The notes below the pieces were generated by a model. It saw only the letters and a program-made list of their open reading frames with translations, did no database searches and was not told the DNA's origin. Shown piece by piece: positions 3,622 to 63,994 of a stretch of 64,000 nt of DNA. Origin of the DNA: a virus. Within the stretch, counting starts at the first letter, position 1, and each line of letters begins with the position of its first letter. Both the position numbers and the translations under genes were made by a program. The stretch covers positions 1 through 64,000 of IMG/VR virus record IMGVR_UViG_3300036781_000230, one strand, 5' to 3'.

Positions 3622-3627
3622 TTCATC

Positions 3628-3737: not shown

Positions 3738-3759
3738 GTCAATCCAATGGAGAAATAGC

Positions 3760-4041: not shown

Positions 4042-4054
4042 GGGAGGAGAGACT

Positions 4055-4501: not shown

Positions 4502-4504
4502 ATT

Positions 4505-4822
4505 ATGTGTACATTTTCAGTAGTAGACACTCCACTTACACCAGTAGCGAGTGCCTTATTGCAAGGTGCCGCAAATACTTCAGTTTCAGTTGCTCTCCCC
4601 AGTAATTCTTCAAACACTCCTCCTTCTACAAAAATTATGTTGACTAATATCGGGTCGACTATTCTTTTCATTAATCTAGGAACTTCTGGTGTTGAGGCTA
4701 CTATCTGGGAAGGTGTTCCAGTTCTTCCGAATCAGAATTTATTTTTGTCTATCGGAACGAATGATCACATTGCCGCTATTTCTGAAAGCAGTACCGAACT
4801 CATGATTAATACGGGGTACTAA
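4505..4822 (+). CDS. small beta-rich structural-type protein, paralogue of next gene
   Basis: 105 residues with repeated short strands: VASALLQGAANTSVSVALPS, TKIMLTNIGSTILFINLGTS, and GVPVLPNQNLFLSIGTNDHI. It shares the plan of the next gene (ALP..., T-N-x-G, G-V-E, L-N-x-G/Q). This resembles single-domain beta-sandwich proteins used as head decoration or fibre parts. Lies unusually between the small and large terminase genes. Confidence 0.6.
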   Translation: MCTFSVVDTPLTPVASALLQGAANTSVSVALPSNSSNTPPSTKIMLTNIGSTILFINLGTSGVEATIWEGVPVLPNQNLFLSIGTNDHIAAISESSTELMINTGY

Positions 4823-4824
4823 AA

Positions 4825-5121
4825 ATGGCTTTTACTGAGTTTTTTACTCCCTCTGGATACGCTACGCTAGTAGCTGGCGCTACGTCTGCTGGTGTAGCTC
4901 TTCCTGCTGCTGGATCTCCTACCTCAGCTCGAGTTACAAATGCTGGGCCAAATCCAGTAGCTGTTTTGATTGGTGCTTCTGGGGTTGAAGTCACTCCTTC
5001 AACCGGACTTATTTTGAATGCTGGAGAATCAGTGTATCTTGCTACTGGAGCTGAAATTGCTGCCATTTCTTTGGGTGGTGGACCAAGTGATAGCTCAGTA
5101 TTTATCTCAGTAGGCACATAA
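4825..5121 (+). CDS. small beta-rich structural-type protein (decoration-like)
   Basis: 98 residues: GVALPAAGSPTSARVTNAG, then NPVAVLIGASGVEVTPSTG, then ILNAGESVYLATGAEIAAI. The pattern of a variable tip followed by NAG-x-x-P-V and a closing GE-x-x-Y-L recurs in phage and environmental sequences. The role is inferred from neighbours: a virion surface or accessory protein. ATG is 2 bases after the previous stop. Confidence 0.6.
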   Translation: MAFTEFFTPSGYATLVAGATSAGVALPAAGSPTSARVTNAGPNPVAVLIGASGVEVTPSTGLILNAGESVYLATGAEIAAISLGGGPSDSSVFISVGT

Positions 5122-5131
5122 GGAGAGTGTT

Positions 5132-6400
5132 GTGCCAATCTTTAAACCGTTCGGACAAAAAGCCCACGATTTTATCAAGAGGCATCCGAGTCAGGATAAG
5201 AAGTACACTCTTCTAGAAGGTAGCGTTCGTTCTTCAAAGACTTTTGCTGTAGATGCTAAGCTCATTCTTCAACTTTGCAATTATAAAGTTAATGGAAAGA
5301 GAGTCATCTGCGGAGCTACGAAGCAAACTGTCTATAAGAACATGCTTCTGGATATATTTCAAGTAGTCGGTAAGAAAAACTATTCTTATAATCGAGCTTC
5401 TGGTGAACTCTGGTTATTCGGGGTTCAGTGGTTCATCATCGGAGCTCGAGATGAAGCAAGTTATAAGAACATTCTTGGCATGACCATTGGCATCGCAATA
5501 TGCGATGAGTGGACTGAATTTCCGAGAAGTTTCTCAATGCAGTTGTTTCTTCGACTTTCTCCCCCGGGCTCGAGGTTATATGCTACCACAAACCCTGGGA
5601 CACCTCAACACTATCTGTTCACTGAAGTCATTCATAACGAGAATTTTGCTCCTGATCTCGAAGTTATCCACTTCACACTCGAAGATAATCCCAATATTGA
5701 AGCTGATCAAAAGAGACAAATTATTGCCTCTCAGAAAGGCGTTTACTATCAACGATATATCTTAGGCCTGTGGGTGGTAGCTGAAGGAGCTATCTACAAG
5801 GATGCGTGGTCGGAAGATCTTTTGTATAATGATCAGTCTAGACCAATTGGACTGTACGGCTCTGGTGGGTACAATAAACATATAATAGCTATTGACCACG
5901 GGACGCACAATCCCTGTACGTTCCTAGAGTTCTTTGATGATGGTGACGTAGCATGGATGGATCGAGAATATTACTGGGACTCAGTTAAAGAGATGAGGCA
6001 AAAAACTAATTCTGAGTATGCTGATGACTTAGAAGAGTTCATAGCTAGTTCTAGAGTTATAGGGGTTAATAATCCTATGATTGTAGTTGATCCTGCTGCT
6101 GCTGGATTTAAGATAGAACTCGTTAAACGCGGATTGTATGTAGTTGATGCGAATAATGAAGTTCTAGAAGGTATTCATCGAACTTCTGAAGTGATGGCCT
6201 GTAAAGCTTTGAGAGTTCATGAAGATTGCGCGAATGAACGTCGAGAATGTGGTCTATATTCCTGGGATAAGAAAGCCGGGGAAAAGGGCAATGAGCAACC
6301 ACTCAAGGTCAATGATCATACTCAAGACGCCAAGAGATATGGAGTAATGGAACTGTTCCCTGAATGGAGAATGGTATCTACTCTTCAAAGAGCTGCTTAA
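5132..6400 (+). CDS. terL: terminase large subunit
   Basis: 422 residues, GTG start after GGAGAG. The ATPase half has the Walker A-like EGSVRSSKTF (29-38), Walker B ICDEWTEF (123-130) and a TTNPGTPQHY coupling motif. The nuclease half has an RNase H-like start IAIDHGTHNPC and IVVDPAAAGFK with acidic residues. This is the packaging motor that pumps DNA into the prohead through the portal and cuts concatemers. Length and motif order are normal for PBSX/Terminase_6-like proteins. Confidence 0.95.
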   Translation: MPIFKPFGQKAHDFIKRHPSQDKKYTLLEGSVRSSKTFAVDAKLILQLCNYKVNGKRVICGATKQTVYKNMLLDIFQVVGKKNYSYNRASGELWLFGVQWFIIGARDEASYKNILGMTIGIAICDEWTEFPRSFSMQLFLRLSPPGSRLYATTNPGTPQHYLFTEVIHNENFAPDLEVIHFTLEDNPNIEADQKRQIIASQKGVYYQRYILGLWVVAEGAIYKDAWSEDLLYNDQSRPIGLYGSGGYNKHIIAIDHGTHNPCTFLEFFDDGDVAWMDREYYWDSVKEMRQKTNSEYADDLEEFIASSRVIGVNNPMIVVDPAAAGFKIELVKRGLYVVDANNEVLEGIHRTSEVMACKALRVHEDCANERRECGLYSWDKKAGEKGNEQPLKVNDHTQDAKRYGVMELFPEWRMVSTLQRAA

Positions 6401-6409
6401 GGAGCTAAA

Positions 6410-6742
6410 ATGGCACATAATTTTGGTGGTTTCTCAGCTTACGCTAATGACGAGGCTCCCATTGAGGAGATGTCGAATGACGGTGGGCTTCCTGGTTCTC
6501 CTTATTACGCTGGAGACGGCGGTGATGGTTCTGGTGTAATGAGACGTCATCATGTGGAAGGACTTCGTGATTTAGACCGTAAACCTGCAGAAGACTCAAT
6601 GTCTGTTCCTGAAGGAATGAACTCAGGAATTAGTGAAGATTCGCTCGGACCAAGTGGTAAGAAATTCACTGAGCATTTACACTCTCGTAAAGGTGATGGT
6701 AAGTTCGAACCATCATCGATGCGTGGAAAAGAAAAAGAGTAG
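6410..6742 (+). CDS. hypothetical, low-complexity Gly/Asp/Ser protein
   Basis: 110 residues with a disordered look (GGLPGSPYYAGDGGDGSG) and a basic end. It lies between terminase and portal. No motif. Two other disordered proteins of similar style are at 10642 and 10845, suggesting assembly-related roles, but that is only contextual. Confidence 0.6.
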   Translation: MAHNFGGFSAYANDEAPIEEMSNDGGLPGSPYYAGDGGDGSGVMRRHHVEGLRDLDRKPAEDSMSVPEGMNSGISEDSLGPSGKKFTEHLHSRKGDGKFEPSSMRGKEKE

Positions 6743-6767
6743 TCAAATTCGCAATACTGAAAGGTAA

Positions 6768-7064
6768 ATGATGAAACGCCTTGCATTCGCTCTATTGCTT
6801 CTTACGGTAGTTCCTGCGGTAAAAGCCCAGAGTCCTACCCTGCCTCAACCAAACTCAACTCTGGCGAATGACCCTGTTTTTCGGCAGATGGTAACTGAAC
6901 GTGAACTCTTGTTTAAGAAACTTCAGGATATTACCGAGTTTCAACAGTTCATGCAGGTTGAACGAAGCATTGAGCAATACGTAGCTACTCATCCTCAGGC
7001 TCCTGATCCTAAGAATGCTACTCCGGTAAAGCCTGTTACCCACAAGCCTGCTTCGAAGAAGTAA
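6768..7064 (+). CDS. putative secreted protein with Sec signal peptide
   Basis: The start has a lysine-arginine end, a hydrophobic core (LAFALLLLTVVPAV) and a KAQ cleavage site, a textbook Sec signal. The mature part is about 75 residues with a helix (TERELLFKKLQDITEFQQFM) and a Lys/Pro tail. The second of two adjacent ATGs (6771) has better spacing from AAAGG. An exported protein embedded in the head module is odd. Confidence 0.65.
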   Translation: MMKRLAFALLLLTVVPAVKAQSPTLPQPNSTLANDPVFRQMVTERELLFKKLQDITEFQQFMQVERSIEQYVATHPQAPDPKNATPVKPVTHKPASKK

Positions 7065-7085
7065 TTCTAAAAGAAAGGAGGTCTG

Positions 7086-8738
7086 ATGCCACGCAAGAAA
7101 TCTACCTCTAGTATCAGACCTCTTCCAGCAAATGACGACAATAATTACGTTCGTCGTCCTAGTGGGATTGCTACTGACAGTTATAGCAATGCTCCTGCTC
7201 GTCTTGGTAATGGTACTCCTAATCTTGTACAGGCTGGTAATTATCCTCTTATTAGACTTACTGAGGATTATCCACTTATCTTGAGTCTGTACAGAAGTTC
7301 TTGGGTCATACGCCGCGTCATAGATACTGTAGCAAATAATATCTACAGTTCTTTTCCTACTCTTACAGCTGATCTAAAGCCTGAGCAGATAAGATCTTTT
7401 GATAGAGTAGTTCGAAAAACAGCTACCCTTACTAAATTGCGCTCAGCTCAGAAGTGGGGAAGACTCTTCGGTGGTGCTGGTGCCGTAATAGTCATCGACG
7501 GTCACGACGATTTGATGCAACCTCTTAGTTTAGACGATGTAGAAATTGGTTCTTTTAAAGGATTGATTCCTTTAGATCGGTGGTCTGGAATTATTCCAGG
7601 ACCTCAGATTGATTCTAATATCAACAACATCGGTAATTTCGGTCTACCTCTATACTATAACTGCATAATGGATGCAGGAAATGTAAACATCCACCATAGT
7701 CGTATTTTGCGGTTTACAGGTAGAGAACTTCCACAATGGGAAGTTCAGGTTGAACTATATTGGGGAATGTCTGAAGTCGAAATTGTATTTGATGAATTAC
7801 GTAAGAGAGATTACAGCTCTTGGAACATTGTGTCTCTGTTAACTCGTGCTCAAGTGCTAAGTATTGAAGAACCCCAATTAGCCACTTTGATGTCTGGTGC
7901 TGGTGGTAGTAATAAATCTTATGGAGATTTCATCAAGAGGATGGAATCCATCAGTCAACTTCTTAATAACCAGGGTCTTCTAGTTCTTGGTAAGGATGGT
8001 AAACTCCAGCAAACTTCTTATGGTTTTGGTGGAATCTCCGATGTCTATCATGAATTTATGAAAGATCTCGCAGCTTCATGTGAAATTCCATATGAAATCA
8101 TCTTTGGAAGAGAGTCTGGTCTTGGAAGTAATTCTGAAGGATCTCTTCAACTTTATGACAATTTGATAGAAGAGAAACGTAAATCTGAAGCCGATCCTAA
8201 TATGGATAGACTTATTCCTATTATAGCTCAGAGTACGTTTGGTTTTGTTCCCGACGATATCGATCACTCGTGGTCGCCGTTCAGATCTCTCTCGCAAGAG
8301 CAGCGCAATAATCTTGCTCGTGGAACTACGACCTCAATTGTTGAGGCCTTTAATTCTGATCTTATTACTAAGCGTGAAGCTAGAACTGAACTCAGAAATT
8401 CAAGCTTAGTTCATGATCAGTTTAGTAGCATTACTAAAGAAGCTCTAGCAGCAACCCCAGACAAGTTTGCTTCTGAGCTTGGCATGGGAGAAATACAAGT
8501 ACCTGAAGGGGGAGGTGATCCATTCTCTGAAGGAAGTGAAAAGGAAAAACCTGCTAAGAATAAGTCTGATAAAGATAAATCTGATAAAGATGAATCTTCT
8601 AAGAAACTCAAAAAGAAGAAAAAGAATAAACTAGCAAAAGATTCCTATCCTTCAGTTGAGAGTGAATCTCTCAAAAATCCAGTAGGAATTTTAGACTGGA
8701 TAAGTAATAAAATCAATATGTTCAGGGCCTCGCAATGA
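7086..8738 (+). CDS. portal protein (DUF1073-type)
   Basis: 550 residues, ATG with AAAGGAGG 6 bases upstream. The N-terminal half (LYRSSWVIRRVIDTVANNIY, GRLFGGAGAVIVIDGHDD) and the EIPYEIIFG-x-ESGLGSNSEG segment match DUF1073-type portals, the dodecameric ring at the head vertex through which DNA passes. The last 70 residues are very rich in Lys, Asp and Ser and probably disordered. It overlaps the next gene by 4 bases. Confidence 0.88.
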   Translation: MPRKKSTSSIRPLPANDDNNYVRRPSGIATDSYSNAPARLGNGTPNLVQAGNYPLIRLTEDYPLILSLYRSSWVIRRVIDTVANNIYSSFPTLTADLKPEQIRSFDRVVRKTATLTKLRSAQKWGRLFGGAGAVIVIDGHDDLMQPLSLDDVEIGSFKGLIPLDRWSGIIPGPQIDSNINNIGNFGLPLYYNCIMDAGNVNIHHSRILRFTGRELPQWEVQVELYWGMSEVEIVFDELRKRDYSSWNIVSLLTRAQVLSIEEPQLATLMSGAGGSNKSYGDFIKRMESISQLLNNQGLLVLGKDGKLQQTSYGFGGISDVYHEFMKDLAASCEIPYEIIFGRESGLGSNSEGSLQLYDNLIEEKRKSEADPNMDRLIPIIAQSTFGFVPDDIDHSWSPFRSLSQEQRNNLARGTTTSIVEAFNSDLITKREARTELRNSSLVHDQFSSITKEALAATPDKFASELGMGEIQVPEGGGDPFSEGSEKEKPAKNKSDKDKSDKDESSKKLKKKKKNKLAKDSYPSVESESLKNPVGILDWISNKINMFRASQ

Positions 8739-9184
8739 AAAATTTATTTGCAAATGCTCTCGACGGTCTTTACTGGGCTAGTGACTCATTACCTACTAAG
8801 AAATTTCATGACTTAAATTTAGTTATAGAGACTCCTAAGTTTGGAATGAGGCAAGGTCCTGGATGGATGTCCAGCCCACCGGCCGACTACGGCTATATCC
8901 TGGACACTACAGGTGCTGACGGTGACGAAATGGACTGCTATCTAGGACCTAACCCAGAAAGTACAATAGTTTATGTGGTTGATCAAAATAGGATGGATAG
9001 TCCTGTGTTTGATGAACACAAATGTATGCTCGGTTATAATTCCATGGCAGAAGCTAAGAAAGATTACTATGATGGTCATACTCATGGAATTCAAATCTTT
9101 CGTAACATAACTGCTTTACCTTTAAGTGTTTTTAAAGCTTGGCTTAAACATGGAGATATCTCTAAGCCTATAATTCTACAGTAA
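8735..9184 (+). CDS. inorganic-pyrophosphatase-like head morphogenesis domain protein
   Basis: 149 residues. The stretch ADYGYILDTTGADGDEMDCY, then LGPNPES, VYVVDQ, FDEHKCMLGYNS matches the InPase polyvalent domain often found beside or fused to phage head proteins. Acidic residues GADGDEMD resemble the metal site of the family. It overlaps the portal gene by 4 bases and precedes the Mu F-like gene, the usual partner. Enzymatic activity is not proven. Confidence 0.75.
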   Translation: MKNLFANALDGLYWASDSLPTKKFHDLNLVIETPKFGMRQGPGWMSSPPADYGYILDTTGADGDEMDCYLGPNPESTIVYVVDQNRMDSPVFDEHKCMLGYNSMAEAKKDYYDGHTHGIQIFRNITALPLSVFKAWLKHGDISKPIILQ

Positions 9185-9204
9185 CAAGATTAAAAGAGAC
9201 TTAT

Positions 9205-9369
9205 ATGACTAACGATGAAATTTATCGATTAGCAAAGGCTGAAGACGTACGGTGTATAAAGCCTCTTATGAATTTAGTTACTCTAGCTGCTCTGGAGATT
9301 CTTAAATTAGAATCTAAAACTCCAGTTCCAGAGGGAGTGAAATTTGTCGACCTCTTTCCTCGTCCCTGA
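9205..9369 (+). CDS. 54-aa hypothetical protein
   Basis: Starts MTNDEIYRLAKAEDVRCIKP and ends VDLFPRP. GAGA lies 6 bases before the ATG. Helical. It overlaps the Mu F-like gene by 26 bases in another frame, a coupling common in this genome. Confidence 0.6.
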   Translation: MTNDEIYRLAKAEDVRCIKPLMNLVTLAALEILKLESKTPVPEGVKFVDLFPRP

Positions 9370-10207
9370 TCGCATAGAATCTGCTTACAGATCAGCTATA
9401 TCAAAAGTAGTTATGTCTTGGATTCCTCCAAAGATAAAAGGCATAAGTCCTTCTTACTGGCTGAAAGAGTTATCTGATGTTAGTACTCGTAAAAGTATCA
9501 TTAATGCTAGTACTAATATAGCTGTAAACATGGTGAGTAGAGTCAACGTAGTAAATGTAAAGTCTTGGAGAGAAGCTGCTCTTAAGGCTCAGAGTAGTAG
9601 ATACATTTACGAACTTCTACAACAAGAGTTATCCGGTCCTGTCGGAGTACGAATTAGACAACTAGTACTAGAGAACGCTAAAGTACTAGGACAGATACCT
9701 ACTGACGTTTCTGATATTCTTGCTGAGGAAATAGCTAAAGCTCAGCAGCAAGGCACCAGGCCTGAGGCCATCGAAGCCCTTTTGAAACATCGCTTCACGG
9801 ACATTATGTCCTGGAAAATAGCTCAAATAGCTCGAACTCAGTCTGGATCAACCAGTACTGCTTTAACTAGAGCTAGAAGTGAAGAGCTTGGACTTCCATG
9901 TTTTATTTGGGATACGTCTGAAGATAGACGAGTAAGACACTCCCATAGAGTAATGGATGGCGTAGTAGTTTTTTGGAATGATTTGCCCTCTCCTGAATCT
10001 TTAGTAGGACAAAGAAGCTCTTTCGGTCGTTATGCTCCTGGGGACTGTACTAATTGCAGGTGCTATCCTCGTCCAGTATTAACTCTTGAAGACGTTTTTC
10101 AAAAGAAAAATAGTCTGATTAAAGTATATGCTGATGGTCAGATAATTAAAATGACTAGGATGAATTTTTCTAAGAAATCTGGAATTGAATCCAGAATGGC
10201 AGCTTAA
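9344..10207 (+). CDS. Mu gpF / SPP1 gp7-like minor head protein
   Basis: 287 residues, TTG start with AGGGAG at good distance. The C-terminal core QIARTQSGSTSTALTRARSE, WDTSEDRRVRHSHRVMDGVV and GDCTNCRCYPRPV is the head morphogenesis family signature (R-T, D-x-RVR-x-x-H, and NCRC ending). Such proteins join the portal region and assist prohead assembly. The next gene starts 11 bases later. Confidence 0.88.
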   Translation: MSTSFLVPDRIESAYRSAISKVVMSWIPPKIKGISPSYWLKELSDVSTRKSIINASTNIAVNMVSRVNVVNVKSWREAALKAQSSRYIYELLQQELSGPVGVRIRQLVLENAKVLGQIPTDVSDILAEEIAKAQQQGTRPEAIEALLKHRFTDIMSWKIAQIARTQSGSTSTALTRARSEELGLPCFIWDTSEDRRVRHSHRVMDGVVVFWNDLPSPESLVGQRSSFGRYAPGDCTNCRCYPRPVLTLEDVFQKKNSLIKVYADGQIIKMTRMNFSKKSGIESRMAA

Positions 10208-10218
10208 GGAGAACTACT

Positions 10219-10632
10219 ATGAAGAATTTGGTTAAGATTTTTCTAGCTATTTTGCTCGGAACATCTACTGTTTTTGCTCAAGTTGCTGGGCCTGTTGCTG
10301 CTGTTCCTGGTACTCCTGGAGCTGCTGCTGTATATGGAACTCCAATCAATGGGACTCCAGTAATTATCCCTGGTACTGTTATTCCGACTAATGGAAAAAA
10401 TGTCCTCACAGGTACAGTCACAGCGACAACCGCAACTACAGCTCCTGCAACAATTACAGGAGTCACTACGAGTTCAGTATGTGTGTTTTCTGCTGCTAAT
10501 GCTATTGCTGCAGCCGCTATCATAGCCGATAACGCATTTTTAACGCCTACTGCTAATACTGTGACTCTTACCTTTAGTGCTGCTCCAGCGACTACCGGCG
10601 GAATCTTTAAGGTTCTCTGCACAGTTAACTAA
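10219..10632 (+). CDS. putative secreted Ala/Thr-rich protein
   Basis: 137 residues. Signal peptide: MKNLVKIFLAILLGTSTVFA, cleaved before QVAG. The body is low complexity (Pro-Gly-Thr repeats, then Ala/Thr rich) and ends FSAAPATTGGIFKVLCTVN, a beta-strand-like C-terminus with two Cys in the mature chain that could form a disulfide. Function unknown; export is inferred. Confidence 0.65.
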   Translation: MKNLVKIFLAILLGTSTVFAQVAGPVAAVPGTPGAAAVYGTPINGTPVIIPGTVIPTNGKNVLTGTVTATTATTAPATITGVTTSSVCVFSAANAIAAAAIIADNAFLTPTANTVTLTFSAAPATTGGIFKVLCTVN

Positions 10633-10641
10633 GAGGTTAAT

Positions 10642-10842
10642 ATGTCGATAAATCCCGGAAGATCAGCTTTTCCATCAGACAACCAGAAGCCTTTTGAAGG
10701 TACTGAGAATTCTGATCCAGGTAATGGTGGTGGAAATAGCGGTGCTGTACTGAGTCCAGCTCCTGGTCTCGGGCTATCTGCTTATCAAGACCCTAGAGTT
10801 CCTGTAGAAGCACCACTACCAAATCGTCAAGGAGGAAGCTAG
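10642..10842 (+). CDS. 66-aa disordered hypothetical protein
   Basis: Rich in Gly, Pro, Asn and Ser (for example NSDPGNGGGNSGAVLSPAPG). AGAGG precedes the ATG. No fold recognised. It sits between exported protein and protease genes. Confidence 0.55.
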   Translation: MSINPGRSAFPSDNQKPFEGTENSDPGNGGGNSGAVLSPAPGLGLSAYQDPRVPVEAPLPNRQGGS

Positions 10843-10844
10843 CC

Positions 10845-11183
10845 ATGGCAAAAATCAATGGCGGATATAGCGCAGTTTCTTGGGGTCCTACTGTGGATTC
10901 AACTCCACATGATAATGGACCTATTCCAGAGATGAGTACTAGCATTCCAAGTTCTATTCCTGAGCTTGGAGCACTAGCTGATGCTGATCCGTATTCTGGT
11001 ATAGGAAACTACGGTAGTCCTGATAATCCTCCGGCTATGGATTCTGATTTTTCTAAGTTAGAACATAAACTGGAAAATAAACCAGGAGTTACTAACCCTG
11101 CTGGCCTCGCAGCAGAAATTGGAAGAAAAGAGCTTGGACAAGCTGAAATGACTCGTCGAAGCGAAGAGGGTCGAAAACACTAG
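10845..11183 (+). CDS. 112-aa hypothetical protein
   Basis: Disordered N-terminal part followed by a helical charged end (GLAAEIGRKELGQAEMTRRS). Could be a small scaffolding or head accessory protein given its place just before the protease gene; that is contextual only. It overlaps the next gene by 1 base. Confidence 0.55.
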   Translation: MAKINGGYSAVSWGPTVDSTPHDNGPIPEMSTSIPSSIPELGALADADPYSGIGNYGSPDNPPAMDSDFSKLEHKLENKPGVTNPAGLAAEIGRKELGQAEMTRRSEEGRKH

Positions 11184-12583
11184 TGCCAAAATATCACTCA
11201 TTGATGCTTAGCCCCAACATCTCAAAAACTGTTGAGGGTTATCTGATATGCGAGAATGTTCCACTTTGTCGAAGTGGTTTTCAAGATTATCTAGGAAAAG
11301 AACTAGAAGATTTTGTAGGCTACGAAAAATCCTGGGAATTGAATCCAAATCAATTATATAGGGTATATCGACCTAAGGAAGAAGTTCTTCATCCAGACTT
11401 CATCGCCAGTCTCGAGGGAAAAACTGTCGTTGATGAGCATCCGGATGGAAACGTAGTTCATGTTGATAATGATCAAGAACTCAACTGTGGACACGTGGAA
11501 AAAGTTGGACCAGGTCCTACTATAGATGGAGAGGTTACTCTTAAGGGTGATCTCATCATTAAGAATCCTGATCTGATAGAAAAAGTTCGACCAGAAAGCG
11601 ATCCAGATAATGAATATGGAACCGCTGTTCGCGATGTAAGTTGCGGCTATGGTCTACACCTCAAACGTCTCGACGATGGGACGATTGTGATGCATCGGTT
11701 GCGTGGAAATCACGTAGCTGTAGTAGAAAAAGGCAGGGCTGGTCCGCGGTTTGCCATCAAGGATTCTGCTCCGCCCGAAATCAAAATAATCAAGGAGCCG
11801 ATTATGTCACTAAGGAAGACGATTATCGGGCGAGGAATCCAAGCACTCTTCGGTGATATCAGCGCAGCAGAAAAGGAAAGCCTCATGGCTGAACTCGATG
11901 CTTCTGGTACTACGAAAATTGCAACAGATGCTGAACCCAAGGAAATGCACCCTGCTCACGCTTGCCTAGATCGTTGCTTGTCGGCGATGAAGGCTGGAGA
12001 TTCTGCAGCTCTTGAAGAGCACAAAAAAGAACTCTTCAAGCACATCGGTCATCATGAGCCTGAACACATGGATGATTCTGATGTGGAAAAGCTCAAGGAT
12101 GAAGAGAAGGAAAAGAAGGAAGAGAAAAAGGCTGGTGATGAGGAACTTGAGCAGGAAGAGAAAACTCCTGCTGAGGAAAAAGAAGAGACTCACGCCACCG
12201 ACTCTGAAAAAGCCGAGAAAGAGATTAACGATCCTGGTGAATCTGTTCTTAAGGCCGCTAACGATTCTGTCCGCGATTACATTCGAAGCAGCCGTCCTGT
12301 GATTGCTGTCATTGCGAATAAGGACCAGAGCAAACGATCGAAGACAGAGCAGATCATGCTTGATAGTTATAATGGCGCTGTTAAGGGTCTTAACTCTCAG
12401 GTTGGTCGACGGTCTACTTATTCGGCTCTTTCTCGCACAAAGACGCCCGAAGGTATTCCTCCTCTGGCTACTGATTCTTCGGCAGTTACCAAGGCCCCTG
12501 AGACCTGCAACTGTTTTGACGGTGTTCCGTACAAAGTCGGTCTCAAGCGTCATGAAACCGCTCATCAGAAGGGAGCTAACTAA
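11183..12583 (+). CDS. DUF2213 prohead protease/scaffold-like protein
   Basis: 466 residues, GTG start. Residues 1-200 (LICENVPLCRSGFQDYLG, ASLEGKTVVDEHPDG, RDVSCGYGL, LRGNHVAVVEKGRAGPRF) match DUF2213, a family encoded next to capsid genes and linked to prohead maturation. After the IMSLRK segment comes a long Glu/Lys-rich coiled region (about residues 260-350) like a scaffold. A protease-scaffold fusion is plausible. The 3-prime part is more G+C rich than the upstream genes. Confidence 0.8.
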   Translation: MPKYHSLMLSPNISKTVEGYLICENVPLCRSGFQDYLGKELEDFVGYEKSWELNPNQLYRVYRPKEEVLHPDFIASLEGKTVVDEHPDGNVVHVDNDQELNCGHVEKVGPGPTIDGEVTLKGDLIIKNPDLIEKVRPESDPDNEYGTAVRDVSCGYGLHLKRLDDGTIVMHRLRGNHVAVVEKGRAGPRFAIKDSAPPEIKIIKEPIMSLRKTIIGRGIQALFGDISAAEKESLMAELDASGTTKIATDAEPKEMHPAHACLDRCLSAMKAGDSAALEEHKKELFKHIGHHEPEHMDDSDVEKLKDEEKEKKEEKKAGDEELEQEEKTPAEEKEETHATDSEKAEKEINDPGESVLKAANDSVRDYIRSSRPVIAVIANKDQSKRSKTEQIMLDSYNGAVKGLNSQVGRRSTYSALSRTKTPEGIPPLATDSSAVTKAPETCNCFDGVPYKVGLKRHETAHQKGAN

Positions 12584-12588
12584 AAACT

Positions 12589-13149
12589 ATGCCAGCCTCA
12601 GTAATTCCTGTAAAAGGACTATACCTCGGCTTTGTCGGTAGTATCAGCAACGAAGGTTATTCTCTTCGCACTGCTCGGCAAGTCAAATCTTCGGACACGA
12701 ATCCTATCGCCTTTGGCGAAACGTTCGTTCTGAACGCAGATAACACTTACTCCAGCGTTAAGACCTTTATTGCTGGAAGTGGCACAGTTACAGCAGCTAC
12801 TCCGATGGGAATTGCTGCAAGCAACGTAAACATCAATCCTACCTACAATACTCAAGGTACGGATGGTGTAAATACTCCTGGCGGAGTTTATCTGCCTGGA
12901 ACTATTATGGATGGTCTTGTTCAGGGAACCATCAATGTTAGCTGCAACAATGGTACTCCTACGGCTGGCGGAAGCGTTTACGTTCGCACAGTTCTTAATG
13001 GAGCTATTCCAACTGGAGTTGTTGGCGGACTCGAAGCTCAGGCAGACGGCTCCAATAGCGTTCTCTACCCGAACTTTAAGTGGAAAACTGGTTTCCTCGA
13101 GACGGATCTTACGGCTCAGGTAACTATTCTCCAACGCACTATTGCCTAA
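12589..13149 (+). CDS. capsid cement/decoration protein (Gp24-like)
   Basis: 186 residues: N-terminal IPVKGLYLGFVGSISNEGY and S-R-T-A motif region, GETFVLNADNTYSSVKTF, TPGGVYLPGTIMDG and a closing FLETDLTAQVTILQRTIA. This is the layout of structural cement proteins placed just before DUF2184 capsids. It would bind the outside of the shell and stabilise it. Followed by the capsid gene after 18 bases. Confidence 0.75.
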   Translation: MPASVIPVKGLYLGFVGSISNEGYSLRTARQVKSSDTNPIAFGETFVLNADNTYSSVKTFIAGSGTVTAATPMGIAASNVNINPTYNTQGTDGVNTPGGVYLPGTIMDGLVQGTINVSCNNGTPTAGGSVYVRTVLNGAIPTGVVGGLEAQADGSNSVLYPNFKWKTGFLETDLTAQVTILQRTIA

Positions 13150-13167
13150 TCGGCGGAAAGGTAAGAA

Positions 13168-14172
13168 ATGAATCCCAGAGAATATCAACAGAGCCTAAAC
13201 GCTCTGCGCAGTGGGAAGGTACTTTCCGATGCCGCAGCGGCAGCAACCGGTCAGACCTTCTTGATGGCGGAACTCGCCAAGCTCGATCCAGTGGTTCGTC
13301 TTCCACTGGAAAACTACACCTATCTTCGCGATATTCCTATCGATCGCGGCGGTGGATGGATCATGAATCATATCGCCCACAACGTTGATTTTCGTGGACC
13401 TGCTGATGACTCAGCTGGTTCTCAGACCAATGATTCGCGTGTGATCGAGTACAACGTCAACCAGGATACCTGGCCGGTATTCCCCTACCAAGTTCGCATC
13501 CGTATTCCCATCGTGGAATCCCTCCGGATGGCTCAGGTAGGACGTTCTCCTCAGGACTTGCTCGATAAAGGCGTTCGCGTCGACTACAGCAAGACCCTTG
13601 ATCGCCGTACATACGCAGGATTTGCTGGACAGTACGGGTTGGTTAACAATCCGGAACTGACACAGACATCCTTGCCTGCAACTGGAACCGGTAACACTAC
13701 GACATGGAGCACGAAGACTGCCACTCAGATTCTCGGCGACTTCAATTTCATGGCTGAGACCAACTGGCTTGCCAGCGGTTCGGCTCCTGGCGCTATGCCG
13801 GATCGTTTCCTTATTCCTCCGGCGCAGTATATTCAGATCACCCAGCCGATGGCGGTTGTTGGTGGACCTTCTGGTTACGCTTCCATTCAGGACTATGTCA
13901 AGAAGAACTACCTTGGCTCGGCCTTTGGAATTGAACCGGAAATCTACCCTCTGCCTGAATGGCTCGACGGTCAGGGTAGTGGCAGTACGCAGGAAATTAT
14001 CGCGTACAAGTATGACAAGGACTGCTTGAGCTTGGGTATTCCCCAGGAAATCACGCGGTTTGGTGCTCCTCCGTCGATCGTATCTGGCTGCTTCGAGTTC
14101 CTGTATCTTGCGAACATCGGTGTAGTCAAGATCAATCGGCCTACGACCGTAGGTCTCTTCTACGGCGCATAA
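13168..14172 (+). CDS. major capsid protein (DUF2184-type, HK97 fold)
   Basis: 334 residues. Features of the DUF2184 family: LDPVVRLPLENYTYLRDIPI, D-R-G-G-G-W, PYQVRIRIPIVESLRMAQ, LDKGVRVDYSKTLDRRTYAG, and GCFEFLYLANIGVVKINRP. It forms the icosahedral shell. GGAAAGG precedes the ATG. Codon choice is visibly more G+C-ending than most neighbours, as expected for the most abundant product. A 44-bp bipartite element with a perfect hairpin follows the stop. Confidence 0.88.
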   Translation: MNPREYQQSLNALRSGKVLSDAAAAATGQTFLMAELAKLDPVVRLPLENYTYLRDIPIDRGGGWIMNHIAHNVDFRGPADDSAGSQTNDSRVIEYNVNQDTWPVFPYQVRIRIPIVESLRMAQVGRSPQDLLDKGVRVDYSKTLDRRTYAGFAGQYGLVNNPELTQTSLPATGTGNTTTWSTKTATQILGDFNFMAETNWLASGSAPGAMPDRFLIPPAQYIQITQPMAVVGGPSGYASIQDYVKKNYLGSAFGIEPEIYPLPEWLDGQGSGSTQEIIAYKYDKDCLSLGIPQEITRFGAPPSIVSGCFEFLYLANIGVVKINRPTTVGLFYGA

Positions 14173-39662: not shown

Positions 39663-40113
39663 TCCACTCCTTCCCAGCTATTTCAATGTAGCAACCTCTT
39701 TCAGCCAACACAAGAAGTCCTTTCTTATCTGCGTAATCTTCAGCACAGATAATTACCTCAATTCCTGTATTAGCTAGCATTTTAGCACATACAAAACAAG
39801 GAACACAGCTACAATAGATAGTATGAGCCCTGTTAAGATCATTACACTGAAGAAGAGCGTTTTGTTCAGCGTGGACTGCCATACATGATGATGTATCCCC
39901 TGGCATATCAGAAGCACCCAAACAAGGAACATCGATACAGTGGTCAAAATCCTTTGGTACACCGTTATACCCTGTGCTAAGTACATGACCTTCCTTATCC
40001 GTTATAATTGCTCCTACTGCTCTTCTAATACAAGTACTACGAGCTGCTACTAGCTGTAACATTGCAAGATAGTACTCATGCCGTTGTAAACGATCTGGTC
40101 GAATTGAGTCCAC
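39643..40113 (-). CDS. dCMP deaminase
   Basis: 156 residues. Zinc ligands and catalytic residues are visible: HAE at 81-83 and PCFVC at 105-109. AVGAIITDKEGHVLSTGYNG and the CIRR segment are typical of dCMP deaminases. It makes dUMP for ThyX and may balance the dCMP pool used by the neighbouring hydroxymethylase-like enzyme. It overlaps genes on both sides. Confidence 0.9.
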   Translation of the reverse strand: MDSIRPDRLQRHEYYLAMLQLVAARSTCIRRAVGAIITDKEGHVLSTGYNGVPKDFDHCIDVPCLGASDMPGDTSSCMAVHAEQNALLQCNDLNRAHTIYCSCVPCFVCAKMLANTGIEVIICAEDYADKKGLLVLAERGCYIEIAGKEWNAENPS

Positions 40114-40954
40114 GTAACACCTCCAAACAACTTTTCTTATTACTAGTTAGTGATTGAGTGTATTCTTTCCAAGGACTATCAAAGACTTCTAGGTCAGACG
40201 GATGAACTCTTCTACTTAGAATTCTTTTAATTTCTTCCTGAGTTGGTTCCATTATATCTGGAGTAAATTGAGGAGAACGAATATTCTCTACATTACTCTG
40301 AACTGAAGCTTCAGTTCCAATCATCCAATTAGTTGAATAGATATGACTAGAAGCAAGATTCATAGTCACTGAACCAACCTCTATCCCAAGTCTAGAAGAT
40401 ATGAGATTAGTTAACTGACTAAAAGTAAAGAAATCATATGGAAGTCCCAACCAAACATCTGAACTTCTCATATTTGCAGTACAGTGAAGTTTACTTCCAC
40501 GAACCATCCACTGCAGAGAAATAGTACAAGGGATATCTTTTGAATCAGATGGATTGGGAGTCCAAATAGTTGCTACAGCTTGACGTGAATCAGGTTTTCT
40601 CAACGTCTCGAGTAGATAAGGAAGTTGAGGCATAAGCCGTGGACCATATGCGCCTGATAGTATTTGATCATCATCACTAAATTTACGCATAACTGAATTG
40701 TAAATAGCTAGACTCTCAACATCATTGAGCCCAGCTTGAATCCACAACCACTCAGCAATCATAAATCTATAGTTAAGGTCTCTGGTCTTACTTACCATGA
40801 TGTTATTGAGGCCGTCTTCAATCTCGAGTGTTACATTGAGAATTTCTTTAGTTCTTAATCCTCTGGGTTGATATTCTTTTCCATCTCCTAATAGTGTTCC
40901 AAGTAACTGGAGCCACCCGAACGCAATACTTCTTTGACGAATATGAAGAGCCAT
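40076..40954 (-). CDS. ThyA-fold pyrimidine enzyme, likely dCMP hydroxymethylase
   Basis: 292 residues. It keeps the thymidylate synthase core: Glu68 (EWLW), catalytic Cys143 (DIPCTISLQW), the Arg163/Asp166 phosphate and base loop (NMRSSDVWLG) and His204/Tyr206 (SSHIYSTNW). The residue that reads dUMP, normally Asn in PFN, is Asp174 here (LPYDFF). Asp at this site is the mark of T4-type dCMP hydroxymethylases. A ThyX elsewhere makes TS activity redundant. It probably converts dCMP to 5-hydroxymethyl-dCMP. Confidence 0.75.
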   Translation of the reverse strand: MALHIRQRSIAFGWLQLLGTLLGDGKEYQPRGLRTKEILNVTLEIEDGLNNIMVSKTRDLNYRFMIAEWLWIQAGLNDVESLAIYNSVMRKFSDDDQILSGAYGPRLMPQLPYLLETLRKPDSRQAVATIWTPNPSDSKDIPCTISLQWMVRGSKLHCTANMRSSDVWLGLPYDFFTFSQLTNLISSRLGIEVGSVTMNLASSHIYSTNWMIGTEASVQSNVENIRSPQFTPDIMEPTQEEIKRILSRRVHPSDLEVFDSPWKEYTQSLTSNKKSCLEVLRGLNSTRSFTTA

Positions 40955-43477: not shown

Positions 43478-43516
43478 TTCAGTAATCCTTTCAGTATCAA
43501 TCAATCTATTAATACT

Positions 43517-43548
43517 ATAATATGTGATACCGCTAGTTGTACACAAAA
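43517..43548 (-). promoter_or_regulatory. TGTACAACT-type promoter box
   Basis: Minus strand: TTTTGTGTACAACT, then 15 bp from TGTACA to TATTAT (43517-43522). This is the same spacing as at 56642-56668, 56768-56794 and 57785-57811. It would drive the 43477 gene and the genes to its left. Confidence 0.6.
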
Positions 43549-43597
43549 TAATGAGCGAGTTTTCATTTATTTTTGCTAGTCACTATTGCACAAAATT

Positions 43598-56611: not shown

Positions 56612-56823
56612 TTGTATTATCCTAGTATTACTTGTATCTATATTATACTATGTAAAATGAGTTGTACATAACAGTTTATAACTTTATTTCTTACGCGTAC
56701 GCGCGCGCCTATATAATATTGATAAGAATAATACAGAAACAAAAATGCAAACACCGTCATTTTATTGTGTACAACTTGATTTACAAGGTATATACTATAT
56801 TTAGATTAATTCTGGAGATGAAC
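56612..56823. promoter_or_regulatory. divergent control region with two TGTACAACT boxes
   Basis: Leftward: TTATGTACAACT (56660-56671 on minus) with TATAAT at 56642-56647, 15 bp from TGTACA. Rightward: TTGTGTACAACT with TATATA at 56789-56794, again 15 bp from TGTACA at 56768-56773. Between them lies CGCGTACGCG (56694-56703) running into CGCGC, an alternating purine-pyrimidine tract. It is the main divergent promoter and a candidate origin or operator. Confidence 0.6.
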
Positions 56824-57018
56824 ATGAAGACTTTTCGAATTACTATTAAGCCCGTGGAATCTCAACCTACTATGACTATTTCTTTCTACATCAATGGTGA
56901 AGATGAAGATGAGGTCCTCATGGGACTCAATCAGAATTTTCATGAATTTCATTGTGTAGTCAATGAAGTCATTATTCAGAATAGTTTTTCTCAAGCTCGT
57001 AAGAATTCTGGACTGTAG
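56824..57018 (+). CDS. 64-aa hypothetical protein
   Basis: ATG at 56824 with GGAG 6 bases upstream (another ATG overlaps that site). MKTFRITIKPVESQPTMTIS, then acidic GEDEDEVL and a helix. Unknown early-type protein. Confidence 0.65.
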   Translation: MKTFRITIKPVESQPTMTISFYINGEDEDEVLMGLNQNFHEFHCVVNEVIIQNSFSQARKNSGL

Positions 57019-57043
57019 TAAAATAAAATAAGGAGAAATAAAC

Positions 57044-57241
57044 ATGGAAATGATCGTGCTTGTTGAGGGTCTTCAGGATTCAGGTTTTCTAGCCACTGTT
57101 AAGTTTGGTAGAAATTCAGCCTTTCACACTGGTTTCACCTCGAAAGAACAAGCAGAGAACTGGTCAAACATCGTTTCTAAGAAAATCGAGAAACAACATA
57201 AGGAGTTGATGAAGCATGAATACCAAGCTCTACAGAGTTAA
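57044..57241 (+). CDS. 65-aa hypothetical protein
   Basis: MEMIVLVEGLQDSGFLATVK, then GFTSKEQAENWSNIVSKKIE with a basic helical end. AAGGAG lies well placed before the ATG. Overlaps the next gene by 26 bases. Confidence 0.65.
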   Translation: MEMIVLVEGLQDSGFLATVKFGRNSAFHTGFTSKEQAENWSNIVSKKIEKQHKELMKHEYQALQS

Positions 57242-57434
57242 CATCTTCGAAATGTCAGATGGAGAAAGAGAGAATGTTTTCTCTGAGATTATTGAAACTA
57301 ACAATGTCGCTTCGGTGGAGTTTTCTCTTGTGATGCTCACTAAAGGTACGTGTCTTGAGTGGGAGCTTAAGCCACTCGAAGCGACGATTACTCTTGAATC
57401 TCTCACCAGTAGAATTCAAGGTCTCCTAGGATAG
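57216..57434 (+). CDS. 72-aa hypothetical protein
   Basis: MNTKLYRVNIFEMSDGEREN, then strands and an ending SLTSRIQGLLG. AAGGAG precedes. Unknown. Confidence 0.62.
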   Translation: MNTKLYRVNIFEMSDGERENVFSEIIETNNVASVEFSLVMLTKGTCLEWELKPLEATITLESLTSRIQGLLG

Positions 57435-57436
57435 TC

Positions 57437-57574
57437 ATGTCTCGATTCGCGTGGATGTCTAAACAAAACGTAGTAGCTACCTGTAAGAAGTGCGGTGCTC
57501 TTCAAAAGGGTGCCGCAGGTTGTTCTCACGTGTCATGCGGTGGAATCTTTGTTATAAAGAAGGTAAATAAATGA
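57437..57574 (+). CDS. 45-aa Cys-rich protein
   Basis: MSRFAWMSKQNVVATCKKCG, then AGCSHVSCGG. CxxC and CxxxxC give a zinc finger. It overlaps the next start by 4 bases. Confidence 0.62.
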   Translation: MSRFAWMSKQNVVATCKKCGALQKGAAGCSHVSCGGIFVIKKVNK

Positions 57575-57765
57575 CAACATTTGAAGCTCTTACGCTTCCT
57601 TTAACGGTAAAGTGTCCTCGTTGTACCCGTAGAAATGTCATCAAAGATGAGGTTTGCTTCGTATGCAGAGGTACTGGACAAACTATGCGCCTCAAAACTG
57701 AAATGGCTGAGATTATCGTAACTCTTCGCGCTGAATTAGAGAAAAGAGTGTGGAAACAAAAATGA
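57571..57765 (+). CDS. 64-aa DnaJ-like zinc finger protein
   Basis: VKCPRCTRRNVIKDEVCFVC, then RGTGQTMR is a DnaJ cysteine-rich unit (CxxC and CxxCxGTG). The remaining helix (MAEIIVTLRAELEKRVWKQ) may be an interaction surface. It probably binds RNA, DNA or protein. Confidence 0.68.
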   Translation: MTTFEALTLPLTVKCPRCTRRNVIKDEVCFVCRGTGQTMRLKTEMAEIIVTLRAELEKRVWKQK

Positions 57766-57778
57766 TTTCTCTGTCATT

Positions 57779-57811
57779 ATTTTATGTACAACTCGTTATA
57801 CACATGATAAT
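57779..57811 (+). promoter_or_regulatory. TGTACAACT-type promoter box
   Basis: TTTATGTACAACT (57781-57793) with GATAAT at 57806-57811, 15 bp from TGTACA (57785-57790). It would drive 57859, 58034 and the structured RNA region. Confidence 0.6.
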
Positions 57812-57858
57812 ATTGAATCAGATTGATAGAGTAATTCTGATATAAAGGAAACTAACTA

Positions 57859-58023
57859 ATGAAGATTGACATCAAGCAGCTTTTAACCTCCTCAACGCTT
57901 GGTAGCATTATTCTACTTCATGCTGCTGATTATCTCTTCAGACAGAATGAAGAAGATAAAGTAAATCTAGAAGCAGTTGGTGTTCTCGATATGCTCAGGA
58001 AAGAAATTGTAATCTTTTGCTAG
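57859..58023 (+). CDS. 54-aa hypothetical protein
   Basis: MKIDIKQLLTSSTLGSIILL start with AAGGAAAC upstream. Helical; ends RKEIVIFC. Not recognised. Confidence 0.58.
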   Translation: MKIDIKQLLTSSTLGSIILLHAADYLFRQNEEDKVNLEAVGVLDMLRKEIVIFC

Positions 58024-58033
58024 GAGATTCACT

Positions 58034-58219
58034 ATGTATGATTTGTTTGTAGTACCTGTTATCTGCATTGGGATAGTAGTTTGGTTAGCTCTTAATGAGA
58101 ATACTTGGTTTGCTTCGAGTGATATACCAATGCTTGAGCAAATTGAAAATGCTCGTTGTCAAGCCGCAGAAGAACGTAAACTGTTGGAAAATCCAGTAGT
58201 CTATACTTTGGAGTACTAA
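58034..58219 (+). CDS. 61-aa single-pass membrane protein
   Basis: Hydrophobic segment MYDLFVVPVICIGIVVWLAL, then a charged helix (MLEQIENARCQAAEERKLLE). The stop is directly before the structured RNA region. Function unknown. Confidence 0.6.
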   Translation: MYDLFVVPVICIGIVVWLALNENTWFASSDIPMLEQIENARCQAAEERKLLENPVVYTLEY

Positions 58220-58745
58220 ACTCATCTTGTATGATGAGTGATGCTCATAGGAAAGCATGGGGAACCATGAAACCTTTTGCAATGGGGTGGTTCGTTTTCT
58301 TCATGGGAAAAAAACGGAGTAAACTCATCCTATGAGTAGCACTGGTTGTACAAGCAACCAGCAAGGGAGGTAATAGTGATCTTTAGTAGGCCACTGATAG
58401 TCACGTTTATCGTTCTTGCATTTGTAATTGGAGACACAGACCACGACATCGCGCGGTCGGGGAAGCCTTCCCATAGTGTCTCATCAAATGCAGATCGACA
58501 TATTTCGCCCGGCTTGGCGGGCGCTATAAATTCCAAGGGATGACATATAGATAGTAAAATTAGATAGCAGTTTGATACCCTGCTTAAGCGCCGGATAAAT
58601 ATCAAGCACTAAAGAGTCTTGACGCGTAAGTGGGGTATTTCGTAAGTTGTATGATGAGTGATGCTCTTGAATCTAACCAAGGCTCGGGACTGACGTACCC
58701 AATACGTTCGCGGAAAGCCCCGTTAGATAGAGAGCATCACTGGTT
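58220..58745 (+). ncRNA. large ornate structured RNA candidate (about 525 nt)
   Basis: Helices found by eye: 58237-58251 with 58329-58343 (12 of 15 pairs); CATGG/CCATG with a GGAA loop (58256-58269); CTGGTTG/CAACCAG (58342-58361); GAGACAC/GTGTCTC near 58432-58482 enclosing GACC/GGTC and GGGAA/TTCCC; CGCCCG/CGGGCG near 58505-58522; GCTAT/ATAGC next; GATACCC with GGGTATT and CTTAAGCG/CGCGTAAG (about 58575-58640); then 58657-58667 with 58731-58741 (11 bp), ATCTAAC/GTTAGAT, GGCT/AGCC and ACGTA/TACGT. The 20-mer TTGTATGATGAGTGATGCTC occurs at 58227 and 58647. No good ORF fits. Size and density recall GOLLD or ROOL phage RNAs; identity unverified. Confidence 0.6.
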
Positions 58746-58766
58746 GTATAATTGAAAGGAGCACGA

Positions 58767-59033
58767 ATGGCAAAGTGCGTAGTATGTACATCTCTCAATG
58801 CGGAGATTGAACACAACCTCAGGAGCAAATCTCTTGACAAGAAGAATGCCGATGGTTCAACATCCAAAGGTTTTCATCACCCAACTGGAGCAGTCTTGAA
58901 AGCTCTCAAGCGTCGTCGAGCTTTTTATTCTCCTCGTACGAGCCCCCACAAGTTCTGCATACATCATGCCCCAAAGGGTGAACCTAATTTCGAAGGCGGT
59001 ACTGGCCGTGCCACCTGGGCAGGAGCCAAGTAA
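58767..59033 (+). CDS. 88-aa basic Cys/His-rich protein
   Basis: ATG at 58767 with AAAGGAG upstream. MAKCVVCTSLNAEIEHNLRS has a CxxC, and KFCIHHAPKGEPNF has the distal C-x-H-H. Basic, likely nucleic-acid binding. It follows the RNA by about 20 bases and might bind it; that is a guess. Confidence 0.63.
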   Translation: MAKCVVCTSLNAEIEHNLRSKSLDKKNADGSTSKGFHHPTGAVLKALKRRRAFYSPRTSPHKFCIHHAPKGEPNFEGGTGRATWAGAK

Positions 59034-59152: not shown

Positions 59153-59199
59153 AAGAGTGTAAAATATCGTCATTCATCATATTTAAAGTTGACTCCTAG

Positions 59200-59224
59200 T
59201 GACCCTGGCATTATGCCAGGGTCA
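59200..59224. terminator. bidirectional terminator between convergent clusters
   Basis: TGACCCTGGCA/TGCCAGGGTCA, 11-bp perfect stem with loop TTA, followed rightwards by TTTAGTTT. A second hairpin AGGATGA/TCATCCT follows (about 59236-59257) with TTATTTT. It separates rightward and leftward genes. Confidence 0.8.
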
Positions 59225-59250
59225 TTTAGTTTATGAGGATGATATAACAC

Positions 59251-63000: not shown

Positions 63001-63689
63001 CCGATTCTACCACATACGTCACAACGAACGTCTTTGATAGTCTGGCACTCATGTGGTCGACGCCACATATCGATCTTCTTTTCATAGTCGATGTGGAATA
63101 TCTTCCACTCGTCCCCTTCTGGTGGCGGTGTGTTGAAGTCAGTCTGTACGAAGTCGTAGAGCATCAACTCCTCAGCAGGCTTCGGAAAGCCCAGCACTTT
63201 TGACAGTCGTTCGCTCGGAGTCAACAACCTTGGTACATCAATAGGTGCTGCAGACGCGACACTCTCGAGTAGGCTCTTCGGCCTGTACAGCGTCACCGCA
63301 ATTGACTTGCAAGTTTGACACACCAGGTCACCACCCACATAGCCACCTTTCGAAAACTCCTGAACGAACCCTTCAAAGAGGACTTCCTTGACGTCCGCAC
63401 AATTTCCACACCAAGCAAATTTAGAGTGAACAACGGTCTCTTGCGTAGCTTCATCTTTTGTTAAGAATTTAAACCCGAAGAATTCGGTCATGTTCAAAAT
63501 GCCTTCGAGAGCGACTTTGAGAGCGTTTAGTCTATCTGGCGTAGGTATCGGGTTAAATATCATGTACATCGAATTCGGTCTGAACAACTGATCAAGAAGG
63601 CCCTTTACGTACGTCTCGGGATTCATCTTGGCTCGTTGAGACGTTAGCTTGAGTTGAGCTTTAGCTTCTGGGTTTAATGAGACTATCAT
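62997..63689 (-). CDS. 230-aa protein with two Cys pairs
   Basis: SKFAWCGNCADVKEVLFEGF, then GGDLVCQTCKS in the middle, and DVRCDVCGRIG at the end. Three CxxC motifs, at least one zinc ribbon. N-terminal helix resembles a small dimer domain (MIVSLNPEAKAQLKLTSQRA, ribbon-helix-helix-like). Composition is a little more G+C rich. Possibly a DNA binder. Confidence 0.62.
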   Translation of the reverse strand: MIVSLNPEAKAQLKLTSQRAKMNPETYVKGLLDQLFRPNSMYMIFNPIPTPDRLNALKVALEGILNMTEFFGFKFLTKDEATQETVVHSKFAWCGNCADVKEVLFEGFVQEFSKGGYVGGDLVCQTCKSIAVTLYRPKSLLESVASAAPIDVPRLLTPSERLSKVLGFPKPAEELMLYDFVQTDFNTPPPEGDEWKIFHIDYEKKIDMWRRPHECQTIKDVRCDVCGRIG

Positions 63690-63994
63690 GCTATGAATAT
63701 ATCCTTAGGAAGTTCTTTTACGATCTCGAATCTGTATTCTCCTAATTCTCTTACAAGAAACCACGGTGTTATCATCGCGTGAAGAGAATGATTGAATCTT
63801 GACTTTGTGAGTCTCAGATTTCGTAGACAGTGTTGTTGGAATTCAGATATCTTCAGTGTGGATAAACCTTTCAGTACATCGATAGATCTAAATCCATTAG
63901 AAGACTCTAGTAGAATGCGAACATTCATACTGGTAAGTTTATTCGAGTGTAGAGATTTTACATACGTGAACCGTTCCCCTAGTTTATTGTCCAA
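63686..63994 (-). CDS. 102-aa or longer hypothetical protein, runs to window edge
   Basis: The only start in the window is TTG at 63994; the frame stays open to the last base, so the true start probably lies beyond the edge. RILLESSNGFRSIDVLKGLS, then ISEFQQHCLRNLRLTKSRFN, ending ELPKDIFIA. Helical. Unknown. Confidence 0.55.
   Translation of the reverse strand: MDNKLGERFTYVKSLHSNKLTSMNVRILLESSNGFRSIDVLKGLSTLKISEFQQHCLRNLRLTKSRFNHSLHAMITPWFLVRELGEYRFEIVKELPKDIFIA

Follow-up and report, generated by a model that had tools for sequence, protein, structure and literature searches.

What does a phage encode in about 530 nt of strongly folded sequence between two complete small genes, to which kind of RNA does it belong, and how could it act? 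These questions are raised by a region at 58 kb of the window, the stretch of 64,000 nucleotides analysed here, which is part of a 79,071-base IMG/VR virus record (labelled G000). The original prediction held that about 525 nt at this place form a real structured phage RNA, possibly a new or divergent member of the GOLLD/ROOL class. The first half of this claim was borne out, as the RNA extends over ~530 nt and shuffled sequences fold much worse; the second half was not, as discussed below.

Fold of the region at 58 kb

The segment 58180-58800 folds on the + strand at -228.8 kcal/mol, compared with -168.3 +/- 6.9 kcal/mol for 20 shuffles (z -8.8); on the - strand, z is -6.8. When 200-nt segments from both strands of the 64 kb were ranked after correction for composition, 58301-58500 (+) came first of 1276. 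The predicted fold has two large hairpins, here called modules A and B, with further domains between them (P, pair probability):

58220-58240, + strand: alternative hairpin ACTCATC-TTGTAT-GATGAGT, which takes the 5' strand of A; P 0.49 (A region plus flanks)
58226-58354, + strand: module A, with a 10-bp outer stem, a G.G mismatch (58236 x 58344), an inner stem of 4 + 11 bp and a branched top
58264-58280, + strand: conserved block ACCATGAAACCTTTTGC of module A, present in the relative G003 too
58300-58308, + strand: second conserved block TCATGGGAA, in the terminal loop region of module A, from the alignment of A tops
58341-58361, + strand: alternative hairpin CTGGTTG-TACAAG-CAACCAG, which takes the 3' strand of A; P 0.67
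58361-58419, + strand: long hairpin of helices of 7, 5, 5 and 5 bp with symmetric internal loops between them; P 0.98-0.99
58376-58543, + strand: possible 55-aa ORF with a GTG start and a strong Shine-Dalgarno-like sequence
58420-58495, + strand: three-way domain, the GAGACAC/GTGTCTC stem plus two hairpins; P 0.54-1.00 by helix
58506-58523, + strand: hairpin CGCCCG-GCTTGG-CGGGCG; P 0.97
58574-58639, + strand: domain closed by GATACCC.../...GGGTATT (13 bp)
58645-58753, + strand: module B, with an 11-bp outer stem, a G.G mismatch (58656 x 58742), a 12-bp inner stem and three nested helices

The domain z-scores, in order, are -7.8 (A), -6.0 (long hairpin), -3.7 (three-way domain), -1.0, -2.8 (58561-58645) and -7.1 (B); thus 58495-58560 is not unusually structured. 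The helices originally picked out by eye are all present in the computed fold, mostly with high pair probability. The pairing of 58237-58251 with 58329-58343 was recovered with one A.G mismatch and makes up most of the inner stem of module A (58237-58240 x 58340-58343, P 0.82; 58242-58252 x 58328-58338, P 0.94). GAGACAC/GTGTCTC corresponds to 58431-58437 x 58476-58482 (P 0.99), GATACCC/GGGTATT falls within a 13-bp helix (58574-58586 x 58627-58639, P 0.94), and the proposed 11-bp stem 58657-58667 x 58731-58741 lies inside the 12-bp helix of module B (P 1.00) and encloses three nested helices. Beyond the G.G mismatch from this helix, 58645-58655 pairs with 58743-58753 as the 11-pair outer stem. 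A GGAA loop at 58261-58264 is indeed predicted (P 0.87), but the pairing that surrounds it differs from the one that the homologue supports.

A 20-mer had been noted on the 5' side of two domains. Exact copies lie at 58227 and 58647, there is no further copy within 3 mismatches, and both domains are closed by CACTGGTTGTA. The first copy is complementary to the final 3' strand across 10 nt, so that local and long-range pairing could compete in G000, as suggested, whereas by inspection the complementarity between the A 5' strand and the B 3' strand is lost in the relatives. The 20-mer also contains a hammerhead-like UGAUGAG; this was set aside, as Rfam gave no match and the required preceding C is an A.

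The middle domains (58361-58640) are without homologue and are predicted from folding. The hairpin at 58361-58419, for which no homologue was found, sequesters both the Shine-Dalgarno-like GGGAGGT and the GTG start of the 55-aa ORF. This ORF had been singled out as possible conserved protein coding; its codon usage is unlike that of the phage genes (log-odds -0.16 per codon, against +0.04 to +0.18 in the neighbouring genes), a test which counts as weak because in G003 small conserved genes are not separable from noise. It matches no protein family and is probably not a gene.

Twin hairpins in three related phages

G000 is a tailed phage with contractile-tail genes (terminase, DUF1073-type portal, capsid, baseplate wedge) and also encodes a PolA-type polymerase, a primase and helicases. 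No tRNA genes were found in the window, in the remainder of the record or in the relatives. The RNA has no DNA homologues among isolated phages, plasmids or IMG/VR, and relatives were located via the helicase and primase genes. Two of them cover the RNA region, G002 (locus L004) and G003 (locus L007), both uncultured phages, with helicases 68% and 66% identical to that of G000. In both, strongly folded sequence occurs between genes ~5-8 kb upstream of the helicase, and these RNAs likewise have no DNA homologues in phages except short chance matches. Bacterial genomes were sought via terminase and capsid, and none were found. A fourth relative, G005, is without twin hairpins; the comparison below covers G000, G002 and G003.

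The whole records were scanned for long stems, and each of the three phages has exactly two hairpins of one design in one place (40069-40179 and 39937-40065 in G002; 64318-64447 and 63678-63789 in G003). All modules share one design, and each spans 109-130 nt: the outer stem has 7-11 bp and is followed by a single G.G mismatch, the inner stem covers 12-16 positions, and the top is branched or elaborated. The stems of all six have 21-26 pairs and the one-base mismatch, which is G.G in 6/6, with U at its 5' side and a standard pair on either side. Among the other stems of the same scan, G.G is a minority class; since A and B within one genome are not independent, the six modules represent at least three events. 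The pair occurs once per genome and is among the strongest hairpins of each, and in G000, G002 and G003 alike the two long G.G hairpins lie on the coding strand, where G.U pairs count and the structure is much better. Around the mismatch, the stem core is alike within a genome and different between genomes: the 20-mer is identical in both modules of the window, and the core is TTGCC...GG in G002 and G003. An IMG/VR search with the pattern TYGATTTGCCTCTGGGYC returned G002 and G003 only, besides two unrelated matches.

Module A of the window is homologous to L007:2305-2434 of G003. The two have ACCATGAAACCTTTNGC and then TCATGGGAA in common, in the same order and structural setting, and the local alignment of their tops is better than 2000/2000 shuffles. 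The 17-base pattern ACCATGAAACCTTTNGC has 38 matches in IMG/VR. A G.G stem surrounds the match in G003 and no other; the remaining matches, mostly coding sequence, served as a negative control. RNAalifold on the two A modules gives 32 common pairs with 14 double-sided changes and 0 broken. Fitting a structure to two sequences will by itself give some such pairs, which makes the shuffle control important: compared with 500 column shuffles, the alignment has an energy z of -10.5, and none of the shuffled versions reaches its number of double changes. A covariance model of A matched only its two training sequences in 482 kb, a single copy per genome.

Module B of G002 and that of G003 are 73% identical across 139 columns, and RNAalifold gives 42 pairs with 6 double-sided changes and 0 broken (z -12.6 against column shuffles). 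For neither module did a column-shuffled alignment fold as well. The compensatory changes that the original prediction had asked of homologues were thus seen in the homologous modules of related phages. Module B of the window resembles L004:4691-4819 (G002) and L007:2963-3074 (G003) in position and stem design, and has no sequence similarity to them, so that it is taken as a homologue from its position, its stem design and the G.G mismatch; the 20-mer ties it to module A of its own genome. A pseudoknot between GAGGCAAG and UUUGCCUC in the loop of B was considered in G002 and G003; the strands are complementary but invariant, thus unproven, and the pairing is absent from the window.

The interval between A and B varies widely: 3 nt in G002, two ORFs in G003 and ~290 nt of further structure in the window. 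Total size is therefore not kept. The G003 ORFs encode 102 and 76 aa and match no family, including endonuclease and maturase families.

Could all of this arise by chance or artefact, from inverted repeats in AT-rich sequence or from a degenerate protein-coding gene? Only short ORFs occur here, and the 55-aa ORF does have its Shine-Dalgarno-like sequence and a hydrophobic start; the shuffle and column-shuffle controls, the architecture common to three phages and the codon usage nevertheless make such an origin very improbable. For modules A and B, RNAalifold and the column shuffles refute it. We are close to certain that this is a genuine conserved RNA element. We propose the twin G.G hairpins as a new family within the known general kind of structured phage RNAs; the RNA at 58 kb is its founding example. 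Structured phage RNAs are few, and mostly without a function. This family has a compact signature, two hairpins with a fixed G.G mismatch, and shows covariation from just three sequences. Its natural variants have a middle that is empty, structured or coding, which allows the question of the working part to be asked directly. It also opens the question of whether the G.G mismatch is a nuclease or protein site, and whether one RNA controller is reused for different cargo.

Transcription setting and possible roles

The neighbourhood of the RNA contains the following features:

56768-56796, + strand: promoter-like site of phage type, TGTACAACT-N-TATACT, at the start of a + strand gene block
57437-57574, + strand: small zinc-ribbon-like gene, with a homologue at L007:262-459 of G003 (BLASTP 46% over 26 aa, E 3e-7; tblastn E 1.5e-4)
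57785-57812, + strand: second promoter-like site in a looser form (TGTACAACT ... GATAATA), ~430 nt upstream of the RNA and the nearest found
58034-58219, + strand: 61-aa gene, no assigned function, whose stop codon adjoins the RNA start
58767-59033, + strand: downstream 88-aa gene, no assigned function, with its start codon 14 nt past module B
59198-59226, + strand: terminator-like hairpin at the unit end

The pattern TGTACAACT-N8-16-TATANT has 4 exact matches in the window against 0 expected from shuffles, all intergenic: 2749-2778 (-), 43514-43543 (-), 56642-56668 (-) and 56768-56796 (+). The motif recurs at 65620 and 69435 of the record, and the site at 57785 is similar to 43497-43574 (-) (E 5.6e-6). 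Judged from these occurrences, it is likely a phage-specific promoter class. At 56.64-56.80 kb, two such sites form a divergent promoter-like pair. No promoter or terminator of the RNA's own was found. Between B and the 88-aa gene, likewise, none was found except a TATAAT at 58747, which falls in the 3' arm of B and is absent from the relatives. By its predicted signals, the RNA is located inside a transcription unit that runs from the putative promoters at 56768/57785 to the terminator at 59198.

In both the window and G003, the RNA is preceded by the zinc-ribbon-like gene, with their relative orientation unchanged; the genes that flank the RNA are complete. From the end of B to the next start codon there are 14 nt in the window, 17 in G002 and 13 in G003. 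The genes behind B differ between G002 and G003, and the 88-aa gene of the window has no protein relatives. The + strand block 56768-59033 lies inside a - strand region and is inverted relative to the helicase in comparison with G002 and G003; the order of zinc-ribbon gene and RNA is kept despite this inversion. In L007:2136-5177 and L004:4261-5497, the RNA has unlike cargo genes around it, with a conserved small gene on either side (52 aa and 64 aa), which suggests a variable accessory-gene site.

We favour, with a probability of about 0.5, a structured cis-acting element within the mRNA of a small-gene operon, which probably serves processing, stability or translation control. Hairpins A and B would act as cis marks for processing and stability, cutting the polycistronic RNA into segments and leaving the ribosome-binding site of the next gene free behind B, and the G.G mismatch would be where a double-strand-specific nuclease, such as a host enzyme of the RNase III type, or a phage protein recognises the RNA. 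A target of RNase III length or a stabilising 5' hairpin would suit B, as the next Shine-Dalgarno sequence is left free. The minimum double-stranded target of E. coli RNase III is quoted as 22 nt (PMC5371410), and the 21-26 pairs in all six modules agree with a stem length of ~22 bp or more. Like the RNase III hairpins of phage T7 early mRNA and of rRNA precursors, A and B have internal irregularity and are intergenic within one transcript; the conserved loops, branched tops and fixed G.G mismatch, however, are not RNase III requirements. PF14622 is absent from the phage, so cleavage of this type would need a host enzyme. The conserved loop sequences of A, which RNase III leaves unexplained, point to protein or tertiary contact. 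A 5' hairpin can stabilise bacterial mRNAs (PMC3997798). Module B shares with stem-loops of the ompA type the position of a stable hairpin directly before an exposed ribosome-binding site; the element of the window, in contrast, is much larger, branched and partnered by a second module upstream. Its length, far beyond what a processing hairpin requires, counts against the cis-acting reading.

A switch may be added in G000, where module A would have two equally stable states, the stem and two flanking hairpins. In the window, a 7-bp alternative hairpin flanks the module on each side; in the upstream one (58220-58240), the mismatch G pairs with C and the energy equals that of the outer A stem. 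In G002 and G003, an upstream GGCAAG segment is able to pair with the same strand of the A stem. Against shuffles, these anti-stem complementarities reach P 0.03-0.15 each, and the alternative state of G003 lies 9.6 kcal/mol above the stem; the switch is thus only a suggestion. In G003, the 3' arm of A holds the Shine-Dalgarno-like sequence and the ATG of the next ORF, so that A could also block translation there. More speculatively, and we hold this with considerable doubt, the element may belong to a new class in which a paired, insertion-tolerant scaffold bears G.G stems that co-evolve with a cognate factor in each phage, exerts two-state control over the genes inside or behind it in G000, and has its cargo swapped under one controller.

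The same features could instead belong to a free-standing ornate noncoding RNA, excised from the mRNA or made alongside it and acting in trans as in the GOLLD and ROOL classes, with A and B as arms and the middle as a tolerant linker. The ~530 nt structure without a convincing gene in G000 and the conserved A loop sequences would fit. GOLLD and ROOL form RNA cages, and their genes often lie close to tRNA islands; the ROOL linker is poorly conserved among homologues, and tRNAs are sometimes found in GOLLD linkers (PMC12286853). Phage ICP1, which is without tRNAs, makes an abundant large noncoding RNA of ~800 nt (PMC7567579), so a free RNA is possible in G000 as well; the likeness is one of description, a long ORF-less structured or noncoding stretch in a tRNA-less lytic phage, and the ICP1 RNA differs in being known from RNA-seq and located near lysis genes. 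With GOLLD, the RNA of the window has in common that it is a large structured phage RNA of undefined function with insertion-tolerant parts. It differs in length (~530 nt, against often >800 nt), in having no tRNA genes nearby, where GOLLD frequently (not universally) has them, and in what is conserved, modules A and B instead of the 3' half. ROOL is similar in total length, in the variable linker between conserved parts and in loops that could make kissing contacts, and different in layout and in its frequent tRNA neighbourhood; it is an RNA-only octameric cage. The covariance models of both classes gave no match in the window, whether at the gathering score or with E allowed up to 10, nor in the G002 and G003 loci, and no family in Rfam matches the RNA. 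Membership is thus unsupported, given also a phage without tRNA genes and conservation of a pair of hairpins instead of a complete fold. The missing promoter and terminator of its own, the variable interval between A and B and the overlap of module A with a start codon in G003 weigh further against a free RNA, the main rival, which we consider possible, at appreciably less than even odds.

Two similar hairpins that flank unrelated cargo in three phages, with a genome-specific stem core, also recall sites acting as folded single-stranded DNA in recombination or mobility (integron attC-like, or REP/IS200-like) around exchangeable cassettes. This is unlikely: the tyrosine recombinase family PF00589 is absent from the four records and present in 14/14 control genomes, Y1 transposase is likewise absent from the four records (the control worked), the attC R box GTTRRRY is missing from the outer arms (by eye, GTTGTAC/GTTGTAT etc.), and the much better fold of the coding strand and the conserved loop blocks of A fit RNA better. 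A ribozyme or intron-like mobile RNA (group I/II, or new self-cleaving) carrying ORFs in a peripheral loop would account for the G003 ORFs between conserved RNA modules and for the conserved A loops. We judge it just as doubtful or slightly more so, given that no Rfam intron or ribozyme matches even at E 5-10, that the element lies between complete genes and not inside one, and that the G003 ORFs belong to no endonuclease or maturase family.

Further features of the records

The right end of the G000 record, 66424-79071, repeats 1-13235 of the window with the order unchanged and an identity of ~87% (67-90% for single pieces). The genome itself probably measures ~66 kb; the contig may run into a related strain (a mixed assembly), or the end may be a real divergent duplication. 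The RNA region at 58 kb is outside the duplicated part. At 64115-64364 and ~64.8-66.4 kb, the record is AT-rich and intergenic, with repeated blocks and long inverted repeats, one of them a G.G stem (64133-64346), which was set aside from the twin hairpins as part of this repeat region. The region is a candidate replication origin or promoter region. In G002, further strongly folded stretches are present at L004:9486-9580, with a 15-bp perfect inner stem, and at L004:1750-2000.
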